DNA of 64,000 nt from Psychrilyobacter atlanticus DSM 19335 (GTDB lineage Bacteria; Fusobacteriota; Fusobacteriia; Fusobacteriales; Fusobacteriaceae), in assembly GCF_000426625.1 (NCBI RefSeq), contig NZ_KE384547.1, positions 666,986 through 730,985 of the forward strand. Direction: 5' to 3'. Made by a program: the position numbers and the translations under genes. Numbering within the stretch: position 1 is the first letter of the stretch; each line of letters starts with the position of its first letter. The notes below the pieces were generated by a model. That model saw only the letters and a list, made by a program, of their open reading frames with translations. It made no database searches and was not told the DNA's origin. Of this stretch, positions 995 through 64,000 are shown one piece after another.

Positions 995-1085
995 CTTTTT
1001 TTCTAGATTATAAAAATCGAAGTTTATAGTCGTTATACTTCAGCAGTACTGTTTCTACAATGACGATCGTGTCTTACTCACTAAG
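995..1085 (-). repeat. Partial copy of dispersed hairpin repeat (RA family, 3' half)
   Basis: This stretch is close to the reverse complement of 63585-63690. It shares the runs CGAAGTTTATAGTCGT and CTTCAGCAGTACTGTTTCTA plus a degenerate TCTAGA end. The two-hairpin 5' half of the family is absent here. It sits between the UDG-like gene and the WalJ-like gene. Confidence 0.75.
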
Positions 1086-1088
1086 AGA

Positions 1089-3934: not shown

Positions 3935-4783
3935 TTAAGAAAAAAAAGATTCTTTTAATTTACTGATAAAAACGGTTAAAGCCAATAGATCTGCGCATCC
4001 TCCGGGACTAATACCATTTTTTTCATTGTGATAATTTAAATTATTAATTTCATAAATATTATCTGAATTATTAAATCCACCCAAATTTATTAAAATTTCA
4101 GAGTTTTTTTGTAAATTTAAAAGGGTATCGTAGTCATGCCTGTGAAGTATGGTAGTATCTTTACATTGGCTCATAATTCCTAAAAGTGCCTGAACTAAAC
4201 GATTATTTTGTCCCAATTCTTTGGTAGAATCATAGAGATCTAAGGCATAGTTAAAGACTATTGGAAATCCCATCTCTGCTTCTCCACGAACCCCGCTAAT
4301 GCCATACTCTAAAAAAATTTTTTCTCCATGAGTAAGGCTGGTTTTAGTACTGAGGTTTTTAAGCTCACTTTCTACTATACCAGCGGTCATACTTTTTATC
4401 AGCTTAGAGATTTCATTAAAATCTCTACCATCATATAAAATTTTGCTGCTGGCAGTTATCCCTAAACCCAAAACAAAGATCATCCCCTTATGGGTATTAA
4501 CACCATTAGTTTTAGCAAACATAGCCTTCTCAGCTTTTTCACCAATTTTTCTGGCATGGGCAAAAATTTTGTTAATAGGGTCGTTAGAATATCCGGCATA
4601 AGCCATCTCTAAAAAATATCTGTTTAGGGCAGTAGTACTATCTATAAAGGTAAAATAATCCATATCTGTATGACTTCCAGAAGATACAGGGGAAACTAAA
4701 CCAAAGGAGGGAAAGCAGGAAACTTCGTAGATCATAGCTTCAGTGGCAAATTCACCTAATTTAAATATTATGTCGTTATACAT
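3935..4783 (-). CDS. citG: Triphosphoribosyl-dephospho-CoA synthase (CitG)
   Basis: CitG makes 2'-(5''-triphosphoribosyl)-3'-dephospho-CoA, the precursor of the citrate lyase prosthetic group, from dephospho-CoA and ATP. The 282-aa protein shows the family motifs HTDMDYFTFIDS (residues 38-49) and NTHKG (96-100), and a Gly-rich C-terminal segment (SPGGCADLLA). It is third in the order citC-citX-citG on the minus strand. A gap of about 130 bp with small hairpins separates it from citX. The lyase subunit genes citD, citE and citF are not in this window. Confidence 0.92.
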   Translation of the reverse strand: MYNDIIFKLGEFATEAMIYEVSCFPSFGLVSPVSSGSHTDMDYFTFIDSTTALNRYFLEMAYAGYSNDPINKIFAHARKIGEKAEKAMFAKTNGVNTHKGMIFVLGLGITASSKILYDGRDFNEISKLIKSMTAGIVESELKNLSTKTSLTHGEKIFLEYGISGVRGEAEMGFPIVFNYALDLYDSTKELGQNNRLVQALLGIMSQCKDTTILHRHDYDTLLNLQKNSEILINLGGFNNSDNIYEINNLNYHNEKNGISPGGCADLLALTVFISKLKESFFS

Positions 4784-4906
4784 TTTTAACTCCTTTTATT
4801 ATGGCTAATTGGATGTAACATCATGTTTGTTTTTTATTATCTAGCAAATTATAAATTTATTGAATAAATAATAGGCTATAAAGAGCTAGATTGTGCCTGT
4901 TTGGAT

Positions 4907-4921
4907 GCAACGTCACGTTGC
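4907..4921. repeat. Small hairpin repeat, GGATGCAACGT type
   Basis: The palindrome GCAACGT-C-ACGTTGC is preceded by TTGGAT and followed by a T-run in plus orientation. It contains the citX stop codon. A near copy lies at 36403-36417 beside yqeH and a decayed copy at 4814-4828. It could be a terminator-like element or a small dispersed palindrome. Confidence 0.6.
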
Positions 4922-25105: not shown

Positions 25106-25272
25106 TTTTTACCTCTTTTTCTATTTTTTATCTTAAATTAAATTAGTCTATAGTAGGAGTAATTCATGGATTAATCCTTCCACAAGATTAAACTTTTTTT
25201 GTTACAGATTAAAAAAGATTATTAAAGCCTCTCAACGCAGACTAAAATCTGACTTATCCTTTGAATTCAATT

Positions 25273-25480
25273 CTTTTTCTAGATGTTATCTTAACTTCTC
25301 AGTAGATATATTGCGAGTTTCGTCGCGCCTACCATGCCCGTCAGGCACCCCACTAAGAAACGGGGATCCATGGTTTCACTTATATAACATCATTTAGAAA
25401 AAGTGAGCTTTTCTTTGGTTCGTTTCTTTTGCTCACCAAAATGAAATGAACTCGTATTAAAGGCGAAACCTTTAGAACCT
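25273..25480 (-). repeat. Dispersed hairpin repeat, RA family copy (minus orientation)
   Basis: This is a full copy in reverse orientation. It has hairpin 1 (AAAGG/CCTTT at 25459-25473), hairpin 2 (GTTCGTTTC..TTTTG with CAAAA..GAAATGAAC, 25418-25450), CCCC/GGGG and TGCC/GGCA stems, and the terminal TCTAGATGTTA. It fills most of the 419-bp gap between the aldo/keto reductase gene and the sensor kinase gene. No gene is seen in the gap. Confidence 0.85.
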
Positions 25481-25524
25481 TCGATTCATGATTATTAAAA
25501 TTATTTATATTCAATTGAGCTTTT

Positions 25525-44741: not shown

Positions 44742-44832
44742 GATAGTAAGAATTTACTGGGAGCACCGGTCGATCCGAAAACTAGGGAAGAAGTTTTAAA
44801 ACAAATTTTGATTTATTTTAGGGAGGAAATTC

Positions 44833-45792
44833 ATGAACAAGAAAATATTATTACTAGCAGGAATCTTAGCATTAGGAGCTACAACATTCGCAGCAGAGGG
44901 AACAAGAGACTTTTTAGATACATTTAAAGACGTAATGTCGCCAAATGAAAATATCACAGGTTACTGGAATCAAGAAATTAAAGGATATACTGATACTGAA
45001 GGTAAAGATGACAGACAAATGAGATTACAGAATGCAATTGGGTTAAACTTAACCGATAAAGTATCTGTGGCTTTAAGAACAAGAACATATATGGATTACC
45101 CAGGGAAAAACCAAAAATCAGACGATAACTTCAGATTTGACATGACTTATAACAATGGTAAAATTGGGGATACAGAATTAGGATTCAGCCAAAGGGTAAG
45201 AATGTATAAGGCAGGATCTAATGCAGGAACTTATTCATATAGACCAAATATTGACTTCTCAAGTTATATAGGTGCAGATTATGCAGATGCAAACATAGAA
45301 TATTTATACACAAGATATACTGAAGGAAGAGACATTAAAGAGGGAGATGTAGTAATTGCTCATAACTCTGATGATGTTCAAAGATTCGCATATGATATAG
45401 ATATGGGATGGACTTTAGGGTATGGTTTCTCTACAGAGGTGGAACTTTTCGGAACTGTAACTACTAGTAATGGAGATGCTACAGAATCAGCGTTATTCCT
45501 AGCTTTATACTATGACTATAACTTATATACATCAGTTGATGAAGCTACTACACTAGCTTTTCATACAGAAGTCAGTGTAACACCTGTTAAGTACAATCAT
45601 CAGGAAAATATGACACACACTGATTCAACTCTAGCAGATACAGAGACGTTCATAAAATTAAAGCATAATGTGTCAAATAACTTTAGTACGTATGGTACAG
45701 TTGGTTTATTAACATCGGATGACTTTAAAACTCATACATCTAACGTTGGAGCACAAGGTTATGTATCTTTAGGACTTTCTTACTCAATGTAA
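44833..45792 (+). CDS. Predicted outer-membrane beta-barrel protein (319 aa)
   Basis: It has a cleavable signal peptide (about residues 1-20, cleavage near TTFA/AE) that is almost the same as that of the 370-aa protein at 46746. The mature part alternates polar and hydrophobic residues with many aromatic girdle residues, and ends in GYVSLGLSYSM, a porin-like last strand. Function is unknown; a small-molecule porin is likely. The ribosome site GGGAGG is strong and the leader is long. It forms a cassette with the small lipoprotein gene at 46163. Confidence 0.82.
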   Translation: MNKKILLLAGILALGATTFAAEGTRDFLDTFKDVMSPNENITGYWNQEIKGYTDTEGKDDRQMRLQNAIGLNLTDKVSVALRTRTYMDYPGKNQKSDDNFRFDMTYNNGKIGDTELGFSQRVRMYKAGSNAGTYSYRPNIDFSSYIGADYADANIEYLYTRYTEGRDIKEGDVVIAHNSDDVQRFAYDIDMGWTLGYGFSTEVELFGTVTTSNGDATESALFLALYYDYNLYTSVDEATTLAFHTEVSVTPVKYNHQENMTHTDSTLADTETFIKLKHNVSNNFSTYGTVGLLTSDDFKTHTSNVGAQGYVSLGLSYSM

Positions 45793-46107: not shown

Positions 46108-46162
46108 GAAAAATATTAATAAATTTTTTCTGATAATCGTAGCCAACTATGGAGGGGATATT

Positions 46163-46652: not shown

Positions 46653-46745
46653 GATACCAGGATAAACAGAAACATTTTCAACCAGAAAAAATTTAAAAGG
46701 AACGTTAAGAAAACAAATTTGAAATTATTTTAGGAGGAAAAGAAC

Positions 46746-47858
46746 ATGAATAAAAAATTATTATTACTAGCAGGAATCCTAGCTTTAGGAGCTACAACAT
46801 TTGCAGCACATACACCAGTAGAAGGAGAAACTCCAACTTTATCAGCAGGAAAAGCTGCAGAAGTTATCTCGATTACGGATTCAAGTGCAATTCAAGGGTT
46901 ACTAGCTACTAGACAAACTGGAGAAGCTGGATTCAGTGGTTCATATGCTGGTGAAGTAAAAGTAAGATCTTGGATGGGAGCTGGAAGATCTGCAAAAAGT
47001 TCTGATGGTAACTATGCAAAATCACCTAACAAGATAGAGTGGACAGTGGCAAAAGGTAAATTAAACATGGGGAAATTAGGATTTACCTATGATGTAGATA
47101 GAGATTATAACTTTAATAAGAACTGGGATAAAACAAGCGAAGGTTGGGATACTGCTTTTGGATTTGATTATCAAGGTGGAACATTTGATATGATGGGTAA
47201 AGAGTGGACATTCGTACCAAGTGTGGCATTTGGTTATGACACTAAGGAAAACTTTACTTCTAAAGCATCAACAATAAATGATTCGACTGGTAAAGCTATA
47301 GATACTACAGATCGTGAAACAAAGAGAAGATGGGATTTCAATCCAAAGATTTCAACTACATATTATGGATTTGCTATGGATATCAGTCCTATCGTAGCCT
47401 ATGATGATGTAAGTGAAACTGTAGCGTTTGAGTTAGACATATCTAACTACAGAGCTTTGGGAACTGAAGGTTTATGGTCAATGTATGGAGATGTCTATTT
47501 AGATTTCGCAGGAACTAAGAAGAATGGTTCTTATGCTAACTCTATATTCAATGGGAATATTGATGAAGACAATAAATTTGCATTATCAATTGAGCAATAT
47601 GTAGCTTATGAAAGAGAAATTGCAGCTAATACATACTTCATTACTGAATTTGGATTAGAAGCTTATTCATTATTACAAAGTGAAGCAAATGATGTAGCTT
47701 TATATGCTGCACCAGAAGTTCAATATAGAGCTAAATTAGGATCTGTTAATGTGACTCCATATGCAAAATATGTTACTTATTCATCAACAGGTGGATATGA
47801 AGGGTCAGTTTATAAAGAAGAAGTATCTGCAGGAGTTAAGTTCAGTACATCATTCTAA
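46746..47858 (+). CDS. Predicted outer-membrane beta-barrel protein (370 aa)
   Basis: Residues 1-20 form a signal peptide that differs from the first cassette's protein by one residue (KKLL for KKIL). The mature chain is rich in Tyr, Trp, Gly and alternating strands and ends in VSAGVKFSTSF with a terminal Phe, the usual BAM recognition signal. Beyond the signal peptide the two barrels have little obvious similarity, so they share leader and secretion signal more than body. A porin or FomA-like role is likely but unproven. The ribosome site is AGGAGG. Confidence 0.85.
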   Translation: MNKKLLLLAGILALGATTFAAHTPVEGETPTLSAGKAAEVISITDSSAIQGLLATRQTGEAGFSGSYAGEVKVRSWMGAGRSAKSSDGNYAKSPNKIEWTVAKGKLNMGKLGFTYDVDRDYNFNKNWDKTSEGWDTAFGFDYQGGTFDMMGKEWTFVPSVAFGYDTKENFTSKASTINDSTGKAIDTTDRETKRRWDFNPKISTTYYGFAMDISPIVAYDDVSETVAFELDISNYRALGTEGLWSMYGDVYLDFAGTKKNGSYANSIFNGNIDEDNKFALSIEQYVAYEREIAANTYFITEFGLEAYSLLQSEANDVALYAAPEVQYRAKLGSVNVTPYAKYVTYSSTGGYEGSVYKEEVSAGVKFSTSF

Positions 47859-54844: not shown

Positions 54845-55047
54845 TTCTAAAGAGTCCCTCTTTAATACGGGTTCATTTCTTTTTATCTGAAAAAGAAATG
54901 AACCAAAGAAAAGCAGACTTTTTCTAAATAATGTTATAGAGTGAGACCATGGGTCCCCGTTTCTTATAGGGGTGCCTGATGGGCATGATGGGTACGACGA
55001 AACTCGTAAAAAAGATACTGTGAAGTTAGGTAACATCTAGAAAAAGG
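54845..55047 (+). repeat. Dispersed hairpin repeat, RA family copy (reference copy)
   Basis: This is a complete copy. Hairpin 1 is AAAGAG-TCC-CTCTTT (54849-54863). Hairpin 2 is GGTTCATTTCTTTTT with AAAAAGAAATGAACC (54870-54904, perfect 15 bp). Next come AAAGAAAAGCAGA, a CCCC/GGGG stem and TGCC/GGCA stem, ACGA/TCGT, and the end TAACATCTAGAAAAAGG. It fills the gap between the phosphatase gene and the yqhQ-like gene. A 78-codon minus-strand frame through it is not conserved in other copies. Confidence 0.88.
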
Positions 55048-55109
55048 CATTAAATTTAAAAGTAATATTTAAATTTGTGTTAAGTAATATCAGGAGGAAT
55101 AATATAATT

Positions 55110-56181: not shown

Positions 56182-57504
56182 ATGAAAAAGATAGAGGAAG
56201 TAATAGTAATAGGGGCAGGGTTAGCAGGAAGTGAAGCTGCATATCAATTGGCTAAAAGAGGGGTAAAAGTAAAATTATATGAAATGAGACCAGTAAAAAA
56301 TACAGAAGTTCATACTGGAGATAAATTTGGAGAATTAGTTTGTAGTAACTCATTTGGTTCAAATTTATTATCTAATGCATCTGGATTAATGAAGGAAGAA
56401 CTTCGTATGATGGGATCACTTTTAGTAGAGATAGCGGACAAAACTCGTGTGCCGGCAGGGCAGGCATTGGCAGTAGGTCGTGAAGAATTTGCAGAGATGA
56501 TAACTGAAAGATTAGAAGCAGAGGAAAATATAGAAATAATCAGAGAGGAATTAACAAAAATTCCAGAGGATAGATATGTAATCATAGCCAGTGGGCCTCT
56601 GTCATCGGAAGGAATAACAGACGAGATTTTAAAATTAACAAAGGGAACTAACTTATATTTCTATGATGCCGTGGCTCCTATAGTAACTTTGGAATCTATA
56701 GATCAAGATAAAGTTTACTACCAATCTAGATATGATAAGGGAGATGGAGAATACATAAACTGTGGGATGACTGTAGAAGAATATGAGAACTTCTACCATG
56801 AACTGATAAATGCTGAAAGATCACCACTTAAAACTTTTGAAGAAGAAAAAGTTTTTGAAGCATGTATGCCAGTGGAAAAAATGGCCAGCAGGGGAGAAAA
56901 AACATTATTATTTGGGCCATTAAAACCAAAGGGATTAACAAATCCCCACAAAACAATAAAAGACTATGCAGTAGTTCAGCTGAGACAAGATGATAAAGAT
57001 GGGAAATTATATAATTTAGTAGGATTTCAAACTAATTTGAAGTGGGGAGAACAAAAAAGAGTATTCCAAATGATTCCAGGGTTAGAAAATGCTGATTTCA
57101 TAAGGTATGGTGTGATGCATAGAAACACATTTATAGATTCTACAAAATTATTAAATAAAGGTTTGAATTTAAAAACTAATGAAAAAATCTTCTTTGCTGG
57201 ACAAATAACAGGAGGGGAGGGGTATGTAGCAGCTATGGCAACAGGGATGATGTCAGCTATAAACTTATATCACCATATGTTAGGAGAAGAGGAATTTGTA
57301 TTGGAAGATCTGACTTCTACAGGGTCGATAATTAACTATATCACAGAGGAAGGAAAGAAAGAATTTCAACCTATGGGACCAAATTTTGGAATTGTAAGAG
57401 CATTGGAAGGTCCAAGAGTAAGGGATAAGAGGGATAGAAATACAGCCCTAGGAGAAAGATCGGTAGAGTATATGAAGGAAAAGATAAAGGAAATAAAATA
57501 CTAA
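56182..57504 (+). CDS. trmFO: Methylenetetrahydrofolate-tRNA-(uracil-5-)-methyltransferase TrmFO
   Basis: TrmFO makes m5U54 in tRNA using methylenetetrahydrofolate and FAD. The 440-aa protein has the FAD loop GAGLAGSEAA at residues 11-20, YEMRPVK, CSNSF, and the C-terminal GQITGGEGYVAAMATG. I choose ATG 56182, 12 bp after AAGGAG; the TTG at 56170 lies right on the ribosome site. A TATAAT box is at 56110-56115. The assignment is secure. Confidence 0.96.
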   Translation: MKKIEEVIVIGAGLAGSEAAYQLAKRGVKVKLYEMRPVKNTEVHTGDKFGELVCSNSFGSNLLSNASGLMKEELRMMGSLLVEIADKTRVPAGQALAVGREEFAEMITERLEAEENIEIIREELTKIPEDRYVIIASGPLSSEGITDEILKLTKGTNLYFYDAVAPIVTLESIDQDKVYYQSRYDKGDGEYINCGMTVEEYENFYHELINAERSPLKTFEEEKVFEACMPVEKMASRGEKTLLFGPLKPKGLTNPHKTIKDYAVVQLRQDDKDGKLYNLVGFQTNLKWGEQKRVFQMIPGLENADFIRYGVMHRNTFIDSTKLLNKGLNLKTNEKIFFAGQITGGEGYVAAMATGMMSAINLYHHMLGEEEFVLEDLTSTGSIINYITEEGKKEFQPMGPNFGIVRALEGPRVRDKRDRNTALGERSVEYMKEKIKEIKY

Positions 57505-57515
57505 AATAAAAAAGC

Positions 57516-57805
57516 TAGTCACGAATTACACAAATGTACACGAAGATAGGTTAGGGGATAAAAAATCAAGAAAAAATAAAAACAATTGGACACAGAGATA
57601 CACAGAAGAAAAAAGAGAGAATACACAGAGAAAGAATAAGATTTTTGGTTAGCGAAAATTAGCGTCATTAGCGGTAAAAAAGGTTTGAAAAATCTGAGTA
57701 AGTCTGCGTAATCTGCGACAAAGATTATAAGGTTCTAATCTTTGTCAAAAAAATAAAAAACTCCTGTGCTGTAGCAGTAAAGGGTATTCTTCGTGTAATT
57801 CGTGA
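57516..57805. repeat. Word-like inverted repeat cluster (RB type), first copy
   Basis: The 358-bp gap between trmFO and xer holds no gene. It is made of short repeated words: GTCACGAATTACAC near 57527, GACACAGAGATACACAGA near 57592, TTAGCGAAAATTAGCGT near 57647, TCTGCGTAATCTGCGAC near 57702 and CTTCGTGTAATTCGTGAC at 57788-57805. The last is the reverse complement of GTCACGAATTACACGAAG, so the block is bounded by inverted words. Confidence 0.75.
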
Positions 57806-58750: not shown

Positions 58751-59055
58751 ACTCCTAAAGAGTCCCTCTTTAATACGGCTCTGTTTCTTTTTATCTGAAA
58801 AAGAAATAGAGGAAAGAAAAGCAGAAATTTTGAAAATGGCTTTTAAGTAGAGATAGAATAGCTACGAGCTTTCGAGTTACAGTCCTCACTTTGTTGCGTA
58901 CTCGCAAGGGGCATCCCCAAGACTTCTAGAGATTATTACATAATCTAAGAATCTTGAGAAAACTTAATTTGTATATCGCTCTTAGTAGAATATTTATTGT
59001 AAAAGTAATGTCACCTTCAAAATTAAAAAAAGTAGGACGACTATAAACTTCGAAA
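58751..59055 (+). repeat. Dispersed hairpin repeat, RA family copy with variant 3' half
   Basis: Hairpin 1 AAAGAG-TCC-CTCTTT and hairpin 2 CTCTGTTTCTTTTT/AAAAAGAAATAGAG (58779-58811) are followed by GCAGAAATTTTGAAAATGGC, shared with 63894-63913. The end has CGACTATAAACTTCG, also seen near 1 kb and 63.6 kb. An extra GGGGCATCCCC segment lies inside. It fills much of the 554-bp gene-free gap before hslV. Confidence 0.82.
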
Positions 59056-60666: not shown

Positions 60667-60703
60667 TTGACAATGGAAAAATGAAAACAAGAGAAGAGAT
60701 AAA

Positions 60704-60960
60704 AAAACTAGTCACGAATTACACGAAGAAACATTAGTTGAAAGTAGCTAGTTGAAAATTAAAAGATTTAGTCGCAGATTACGCAGAGAGAAGCAGATTA
60801 AAAATAATAAAAGATCTTGGACACGGAGATACACAGAGGGAAAAGAGAGTTACACGGAGGAAACAAGAATTTCTTAGTGATCTCTTTAGATACTTTGGTG
60901 ATAGCCCTAGCGACTACTTGGTGAGCTTCGTGTAAGGTATTTAATCTTAAAAATTTGTAT
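60704..60960. repeat. Word-like inverted repeat cluster (RB type), second copy, left part
   Basis: GTCACGAATTACACGAAG near 60712, AGTCGCAGATTACGCAGAG near 60770, GGACACGGAGATACACAGAG near 60817, and TTCTTAGTGATC and GAGCTTCGTGTAAGG near 60872-60940. These repeat the words of 57516-57805. The cluster lies in an 848-bp stretch after cmk in which no gene is seen. Confidence 0.75.
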
Positions 60961-60980: not shown

Positions 60981-61280
60981 TTCTAAAGAGTCCCTCTTTA
61001 ATACGGGTTCATTTCAGATATGCGAATATTTTATTTTTCTCTAATAACATTAGAAAAAAATAAAAATGCAGCAAAAGAAACAGAGGAAAAAAATTAACAC
61101 TTCCTCGTTAGGCTTCCCTTAAGTGGGAAGCAGAAGCTATAACCATTTGATGTTATAGCGGTAAGTCAAAGGTAATATCCGTCTTTTTTCAGCTACAGTC
61201 CTCATTTCACTGTGGAACTTATCCTGTTGTACGACTGAGTAAAATATATACTGAGAAGTAGAGTAACATCTAGAAAAAGG
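60981..61280 (+). repeat. Dispersed hairpin repeat, RA family copy, nested between RB blocks
   Basis: It starts GTTCTAAAGAGTCCCTCTTT with TAATACGGGTTCATTTC, but hairpin 2 is interrupted by about 70 nt of AT-rich DNA before GAAACAGAGG. It then has AGCTACAGTCCTCA, GTACGACTGAG and the end TAACATCTAGAAAAAGG. RB-type words lie on both sides. Confidence 0.82.
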
Positions 61281-63491: not shown

Positions 63492-63688
63492 GTTCTAAGG
63501 GTTCCGCCCTTAACTGGGTTCATTTCTCAGCTTGATCTGAGAAACGGAACCAAAGAGGATCAAGAAGATTTATAAAGGTCTTAATGAGTAAGTCACAATC
63601 GTTATTGTAGAAACAGTACTGCTGAAGTGGAACGACTATAAACTTCGGTTTTGAAAATCTAAATATCTAGGATAACATCTAGAAAAAG
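63492..63688 (+). repeat. Dispersed hairpin repeat, RA family copy
   Basis: Hairpin 1 is AAGGG-TTCCG-CCCTT (63497-63511). Hairpin 2 is GGTTC-AT-TTCTCAG with CTGAGAA-ACG-GAACC (63517-63551). The 3' half with CAGTACTGCTGAAG and CGACTATAAACTTCGG matches the minus-strand copy near 1 kb. It ends TAACATCTAGAAAAAG. Confidence 0.85.
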
Positions 63689-63739
63689 AAATTAAGTTTA
63701 AAAGGAAAATCAGATTCCTATGATAGAGCAGGATTTTTT

Positions 63740-63824: not shown

Positions 63825-64000
63825 GTTCTAAGGGTGTCACCCTTAACGGACTCTATTTACTTTTTATCTGAAAAAGAAATAGAGGAAAGAAAAGCAGAAA
63901 TTTTGAAAATGGCTTTTAAGTAGAATATAGAATAGCTGCGAGCTTTTGAGCTACAGTCCTCACTTCGTTGTGGAACTTAATTTGTATATCGCTCTTGGTA
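63825..64000 (+). repeat. Dispersed hairpin repeat, RA family copy, cut by the window end
   Basis: Hairpin 1 is AAGGG-TGTCA-CCCTT (63830-63844). Hairpin 2 is CTCTATTT-A-CTTTTT with AAAAAGAAATAGAG (63851-63884). GCAGAAATTTTGAAAATGGC and AACTTAATTTGTATATCGCT match the copy at 58751. The 3' end lies outside the window. Confidence 0.85.

Follow-up and report, generated by a model that had tools for sequence, protein, structure and literature searches.

The intergenic sequence at 54845-55052 of a 64,000-nucleotide stretch of the Psychrilyobacter atlanticus genome (the window; positions 666986-730985 of contig C2, in a genome of 3.54 Mb and three contigs, here called G000) recurs at several other places, and the question is what kind of element it is. 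A sequence-only reading had described a dispersed non-coding family, RA, with two hairpins whose stems change but stay paired. It offered a non-autonomous mobile element, an mRNA-stability module or a small RNA as explanations, and proposed a covariance model of all genomic copies, a test of the pairing and a comparison of empty sites in relatives. When the window was checked, copies were present at every place that had been listed, but they proved not to be uniform, being mosaics of bodies A, B and D with differing heads:

54845-55052, plus strand: RA copy, full length, body A; full-length copies elsewhere in the genome are 81-88% identical.
58753-59024, plus strand: RA copy, body B, closed by AATTTTGAA (58826-58834) and TTCAAAATT (59016-59024).
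60981-61280, plus strand: RA copy with a long-loop head and an A-type 3' end (TAACATCTAGAAAAAGG at 61264-61280).
63493-63689, plus strand: RA copy, body D (to 63646) with an A-type 3' end (63673-63689).
63826-64000, plus strand: RA copy, body B, extending beyond the end of the window.
25273-25477, minus strand: RA copy, body A, with GTGAGC/GCTCAC as its stem S2.
996-1086, minus strand: body-D fragment, best match 63579-63661 (89%).

Blastn with 54845-55052 as query matched 51 places in the same genome, 12 of them 174-208 nt long at 81-100% identity. The proposed covariance model, built for the head of the element, returned 57 matches, of which 54 were distinct and the other three antisense self-matches. 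RA is a family of about 54 heads plus fragments genome-wide; none is coding, and the covariation is significant. No RA sequence matched an Rfam family at gathering score, and the sole Rfam match, a T-box at 4669-4908 of locus L094, lies outside the head of that locus (4336-4375). A long autonomous version was also looked for and rejected, as the 3' ends lay near heads or were orphan fragments and none was seen to span a gene.

The head consists of hairpin 1 followed by hairpin 2, here termed S1. Its parts, and the body behind it, lie as follows in the copy at 54845-55052:

54848-54864, plus strand: hairpin 1 (TAAAGAG..CTCTTTA), with 95% of cells paired and compensatory changes in 3 of 6 pairs.
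54870-54884 and 54890-54904, plus strand: the two arms of pseudoknot stem S1 (GGTTCATTTCTTTTT / AAAAAGAAATGAACC).
54886-54889, plus strand: 5' strand of pseudoknot stem S2, TCTG, inside the S1 loop, with its partner at 54914-54917.
54905-54912, plus strand: third-strand linker L3 (AAAGAAAA), complementary in parallel to TTTCTTTT, the tract of S1.
54914-54917, plus strand: 3' strand of pseudoknot stem S2, CAGA.
54918-55046, plus strand: body A, closed by CTTTTTCTA (54918-54926) and TAGAAAAAG (55038-55046).

Both hairpins behaved as the sequence-only reading had supposed with respect to pairing. The compensated pairs of hairpin 1 were U-A/C-G, A-U/G-C and A-U/G-C, and the exchange of hairpin 2 arms from GGTTC/GAACC to CTCT/AGAG left that stem paired. 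About 6 outer base pairs of S1 vary with compensation, and its inner base pairs form a pyrimidine/purine tract. Hairpin 2 is a real stem, but it is more than the hairpin first described: its loop is complementary to the bases directly behind the A-rich linker, which makes the head an H-type pseudoknot, a feature that had been overlooked. The S2 pairs differ between copies, being TCTG/CAGA in the copy at 54845, GTGAGC/GCTCAC at 25273-25477, CTTGATC/GATCAAG at 63493, and CTTGAC/GTCAAG or TTCTTGAA/TTCAAGAA in others. In an alignment of 20 heads the covariation score was 0.284, compared with 0.136 for shuffled and at most 0.128 for slid versions, and it exceeded all 500 shuffles and every slid version; compensated pairs were present in each of hairpin 1, S1 and the pseudoknot. 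This test of pairing came out in favor of the fold, and the earlier view of a dispersed non-coding family in which selection acts on a folded nucleic acid and not on a protein is supported. Beyond the pseudoknot, the first reading had missed a covarying third strand, modular bodies with closing stems of their own, and the occurrence of the element across phyla.

Parallel complementarity is the signature of a triple helix, and it is the relation found between the linker L3 and S1. L3 complements the pyrimidine tract of S1 in parallel and so reads as a mirror image of its purine tract, and tract and linker change together: TTTCTTT/AAAGAAA, TTTCTCA/AAAGAGG (the head at 63493-63689), TTTTTCT/AAAAAGT, CTTTTCT/GAAAAGG and CTTTTTT/GAAAAAT. 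Among seven distinct tract pairs, C was answered by G in 9 of 10 cells in the parallel register vs 4 of 10 in the antiparallel register, a result matched by 21 of 20000 shuffles. At the eighth position, in a wider set, T was answered by A in 80 of 87 and C by G in 7 of 8. The code can be stated as T to A and C to G, in parallel, across a 6-nt spacer, and this constant spacer doubles as the 3' arm of the outer stem, which covaries.

The code was used to predict the linker for an asymmetric tract not used before, TTTTTCT, in a second sample of 398 genomes. The prediction was upheld, with 7 matches in five genomes for the third-strand version vs 1 for a duplex-type control, although these counts are small and give a p of 0.07 on their own. 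Six of the seven matches had the full element anatomy, with 8-9 positions conforming to the rule and the pseudoknot in most; one example reads TTTTTCTTT-GGCGACC-AAAGAAAAA..AAAAAGAAA-GGTCGCC.

As judged from the letters, the same code would fit either a purine-motif triplex on the sense strand or a pyrimidine-motif triplex on the complementary strand. The class II purine-motif triplex is described as not forming in RNA, and pyrimidine-motif intrastrand triplexes as possible in RNA or DNA (PMC4666352). On the sense strand, a purine-motif triplex would be sterically awkward, with the outer 6 bp of S1 bridged by almost no linker. The complementary strand would suit a crossing of the deep groove like that of telomerase-type pseudoknots, but the joint across S2, only 0-1 nt, would be tight. 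Because there is a steric difficulty on either strand, the folding strand is not singled out.

Behind the head lies one of three interchangeable bodies, each closed by a long-range stem of its own: CTTTTTCTA/TAGAAAAAG for A, AATTTTGAA/TTCAAAATT for B and GTTTATA/TATAAAC for D. The head is outside these closing inverted stems. RA copies are mosaics of such parts. In two further members of the genus, G002 and G007, one orthologous site that carries body A in G000 was found with body D and with no repeat, respectively. The copy at 58753-59024 is interrupted by a nested repeat of about 60 nt, and a body-D 3' fragment then runs to about 59055. The nested repeat, the hairpin CAAGGGGCATCCCCAAGACTTCTAGAGATTATTACATAATCTAAGAATCTTGAG, lies in body B at about 58899-58962 of the window, occurs between S1 and S2 of another copy (L014), and has many matches of its own within the genus. 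Several deltaproteobacterial loci (L106, L132, L155, L159 and others) have in common an element of about 200 nt that ends in CAATGGG, and its body includes a GGGATGCC hairpin and AAACTCG, strings also present in Psychrilyobacter body A. A deep homology of these bodies with body A is possible on this resemblance.

Within the genus, the number of heads was 52 in G000 (strict filter), at least 100 in G002 and 15 in G007, and a search of a fourth member, G006 (98% complete), found none. In more distantly related genera of its family and order, four genomes had 1-23 diverged heads, and plasmid CP102408.1 of Fusobacteria bacterium ZRK30 also had a match. A pattern of S1 and the linker only was found in more than 119 stretches among the matches listed; by record title these came from Proteobacteria, Zetaproteobacteria, Deltaproteobacteria, Bacteroidota, Clostridia, Gastranaerophilales, Thermotoga, Aquificaceae, Latescibacterota, Omnitrophota and Peregrinibacteria. 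When outer stem and loop were left free, the pattern matched in 38 of 40 such genomes, mostly in multiple copies, with about 0 matches for a reversed-pattern control. Distribution was patchy across the genomes sampled: for the phylum to which Luteimonas marina belongs, 55 of 398 genomes had the module, and for the phylum of Mucilaginibacter gilvus 4 of 148 did. Among 2.9 million viral contigs just 2 carried it, and blast gave no match in phages. This sampling was pattern-based and is biased towards one tract sequence.

Pseudoknot and outer stem were then assessed as features that the search patterns had left unconstrained. For 104 distinct combinations of loop and downstream sequence, the longest helix between the two had a mean of 4.81 bp vs 3.57 +/- 0.08 when partners were shuffled, and helices of at least 4 bp were formed by 90% vs 46%. 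With a looser pattern (160 distinct copies), the pseudoknot gave 4.36 vs 3.06 +/- 0.07 shuffled, and of the 6 outer S1 pairs 4.19 were formed vs 3.38 +/- 0.05; these cross-phyla figures are somewhat inflated by kinship within genomes, and many phyla contribute to them. Taken at the level of sequence, the results suggest that selection keeps the fold and not the letters, with outer stem, pseudoknot and third strand coupled through sequence change. As the folding signature is found in many unrelated phyla, a widespread and unrecognised family is suggested.

Two side observations concern these copies. Translation of the repeat yields spurious ORFs, such as ..KRNEPKK.. and ..QKKRTKEK.., which may contaminate protein databases as hypothetical proteins. 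Heads also occur often as inverted pairs, which are convergent and about 330-550 bp apart in Luteimonas and Chitiniphilus (L091, L109, L110), and divergent and 60-95 bp apart in the genus Psychrilyobacter (G000 C3:1122375-1122607 and C3:1126407-1126637).

The comparison of empty sites was possible within the genus. G007 is about 92% identical to G000 over many kb, yet it lacks copies at conserved sites. The region 25121-25521, with the copy at 25273-25477, measures 401 bp in G000 vs 30 bp in G007; from 63449 on, 915 bp that include the copies at 63493 and 63826 face 0 bp in G007; and at C2:795681 the lengths are 269 bp vs 13 bp. Between xerC and hslV the gap is 0-4 bp in G002 and G006 and about 500 bp, with an RA copy inside, in G000. 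Since orthologous sites in close relatives lack copies, the elements turn over, which lends support to the mobility that had been proposed. Presence and absence could reflect loss from G007 instead of gain in G000, although xerC and hslV are directly adjacent in both G002 and G006. No exact or clear target-site duplication was seen at the insert junctions; the inserts hold other repeats too, and the ends of the element are placed approximately, not to the base.

The RA copies are surrounded by intergenic sequences of another dispersed kind (CACGAATTACACGAA, CGCAGATTACGCAGA, GGACACGGAGATACACAGAGG), at 57483-57534, 57571-57613, 57691-57722, 60676-60727 and 60768-60844, and in G007 and G004 the gap between xerC and hslV is filled by this kind alone. 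Strings of this type occur in many phyla. Elsewhere in the window, two neighbouring genes have 5' ends (44832-44895 and 46745-46808) that are 91% identical and signal-peptide-like, and 189-nt repeats lie at 46146 and 47980 (74%).

Searches around the copies turned up no recurrent neighbour protein family, the recurrent ORFs being mostly translations of the repeat itself, and neither an autonomous partner nor a transposition event was found. Reverse transcriptases were rejected as mobilisers, as RVT_1 occurs in the headless G006 and as single genes in G000 and G007 and does not track the copies. Integron attC sites were considered and set aside because the genes flanking RA are core genes (xerC, hslV, cmk, DUF1385).

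The explanation that we prefer, and to which we give about an even chance, is that RA is a non-autonomous, non-coding mobile repeat, part of a bacteria-wide family, that is recognised through a folded single strand. The sequence comparisons establish what it builds on: hairpin 1, S1 and S2 are paired, the linker matches as a third strand, the module occurs across phyla, copies are present or absent at orthologous sites, and the element is dispersed in many copies without a coding region. The 5' module would be the S1 hairpin, with its loop pairing downstream as S2 and its A-rich linker matching the S1 purine tract. This fold would form in single-stranded nucleic acid, most likely in DNA that replication leaves exposed, and a trans-acting enzyme, in this genus not of the Y1/IS200/RAYT type, would recognise the fold and move the element. 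The body may be variable cargo or a second recognition fold.

We consider it unlikely that RA acts instead at the RNA level, as a transcribed structured RNA with a regulatory role (a 3' UTR stability module or a small RNA). Such an RNA would fold either as a pseudoknot whose linker is A-rich or, if read from the other strand, as a telomerase-like major-groove U.A-U triple helix, and the covariation of pseudoknot and triplex would also suit an RNA read on the opposite strand, pyrimidine-type triplexes being able to form in RNA (PMC4666352). The copies do occur in both orientations, as first described, but that statement misleads: at tandem-gene sites of this genome 29 of 33 copies are oriented with the flanking genes and 4 against (binomial p 1e-5). 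This local bias tracks the direction of replication as well, with a replichore orientation of 38:5 overall and 11:2 at non-tandem sites (replichores called from the regional GC skew of sampled regions). Across phyla the bias is absent, tandem sites dividing 20 vs 20, so a function tied to the direction of transcription was rejected as a general rule, and the positive support for the mRNA-stability or small-RNA option is limited to the orientation bias in this genome. Copies are moreover gained or lost between close relatives at conserved sites, and no conserved gene lies next to them. RNA folding z values of -3.3 (the copy at 54845-55052) and -2.8 agree with a structured RNA, but the DNA values of -4.8 (the same copy) and -5.4 are low on both strands, so folding does not single out an RNA sense strand.

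It also seems improbable to us that RA is passive non-B DNA, which would persist and spread at structure-prone sites with no dedicated enzyme, through slippage during replication, gene conversion and illegitimate recombination. PIT/BoxC/TM_ECO repeats, which share the order pyrimidine, purine, purine, have been tied to local instability (PMC4666352), and RA is itself mosaic and recombining, as at the site where G000 has body A and G002 has body D but G007 has no copy. Such processes, however, leave the paired pseudoknot, outer stem and third strand unexplained across phyla, and likewise the conserved closing stems of the bodies.

Very improbable are REP-like elements mobilised by an IS200/IS605-type Y1 transposase (RAYT), since the dispersed, structured and often inverted pairs (L091, L109, L110), the excess of convergent over divergent sites across phyla (24 vs 10) and the replication-linked orientation in this genome are set against the lack of Y1_Tnp (PF01797) in the copy-rich G000, G002 and G007 (about 54, at least 100 and 15 heads) and its occurrence, within the genus, only in the headless G006, as a gene broken by stops. 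For this genus a Y1/RAYT reading is largely refuted, unless a transposase was once present and has been lost.

Bacterial intrastrand triplex repeats were described decades ago, and whether the triplex physically forms in cells is disputed. They include the closest described kind, PIT/BoxC/TM_ECO, from which RA is possibly a separate class. As described by Holder et al. (2015), these repeats occur in many bacteria and consist in class II of a pyrimidine tract, loop, purine tract, spacer and a second purine tract that mirrors the first; they are linked to local instability and have no known function (PMC4666352). RA appears to share the class II arrangement, with a pyrimidine, a purine and a third, purine tract in reverse-Hoogsteen register. 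BoxC, however, is G/C-rich with a 3-nt spacer, whereas RA is A/T-rich, with a spacer of 6 nt that also serves as the 3' arm of an outer stem that covaries. Nor does RA follow the BoxC/TM_ECO consensus CCCTCNCCC..GGGNGAGGG N3 GGGNGAGGG, its tracts being TTTCTTT, TTTTTCT, CTTTTCT and the like with a 6-nt spacer. RA further has a loop pseudoknot, a covarying outer stem, a hairpin and a structured body, none of which belongs to PIT/BoxC as described; the word "pseudoknot" is absent from the text of that paper (PMC4666352). The generic ITxF triplex database, which lists A/T-rich candidates generically, may include many RA-type sequences.

GTAG/CGTC REPs and REPINs, which go with RAYT, are simple palindromes of 20-40 bp, most of them tagged GTAG or CGTC (PMC3733652, PMC3116915). 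Like RA they are small structured extragenic repeats, often in inverted pairs, in several phyla. Unlike them, RA has a pseudoknot and third-strand module with a body, the copy-rich members of its genus have no Y1 transposase, and its alignments show no constant GTAG or CGTC tag flanking S1. In pseudoknots of the telomerase-RNA type, a U-rich loop serves as Hoogsteen third strand on a U-A stem. The complementary strand of RA would likewise form a pseudoknot in which a U-A stem is matched by a U-rich loop, but the joining loop across S2 is 0-1 nt, which would be tight, and reverse transcriptases do not track the copies. MITEs and repeats of the bcr/BOX/ERIC type are gene-less, dispersed, intergenic and 100-300 bp long, with RNA or DNA secondary structure. 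RA is also gene-less, dispersed, intergenic and structured. It differs in that neither terminal inverted repeats common to all copies nor a clean target-site duplication were seen, the closing inverted stems of bodies A, B and D leaving the head outside, and in that its module spans many phyla. A search of the open literature with the motif string returned unrelated papers only, and none turned up that deals with repeats in this genus.

The mobile-repeat explanation can be carried one step further, which we do tentatively. RA and its relatives would then form a class of mobile DNA without genes that has gone unrecognised although it extends over most bacterial phyla, and that is recognised by a triple-helix pseudoknot whose three strands are matched by selection and which can be coupled to interchangeable structured bodies.

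Covariation of three strands across phyla is evolutionary evidence for selection on a triplex-like fold, and the third-strand code is exact enough for testing by compensatory mutation. One structural family now takes in many intergenic repeats that had no explanation and were often taken for spurious ORFs, and the RA family points to a trans-acting factor yet to be discovered.
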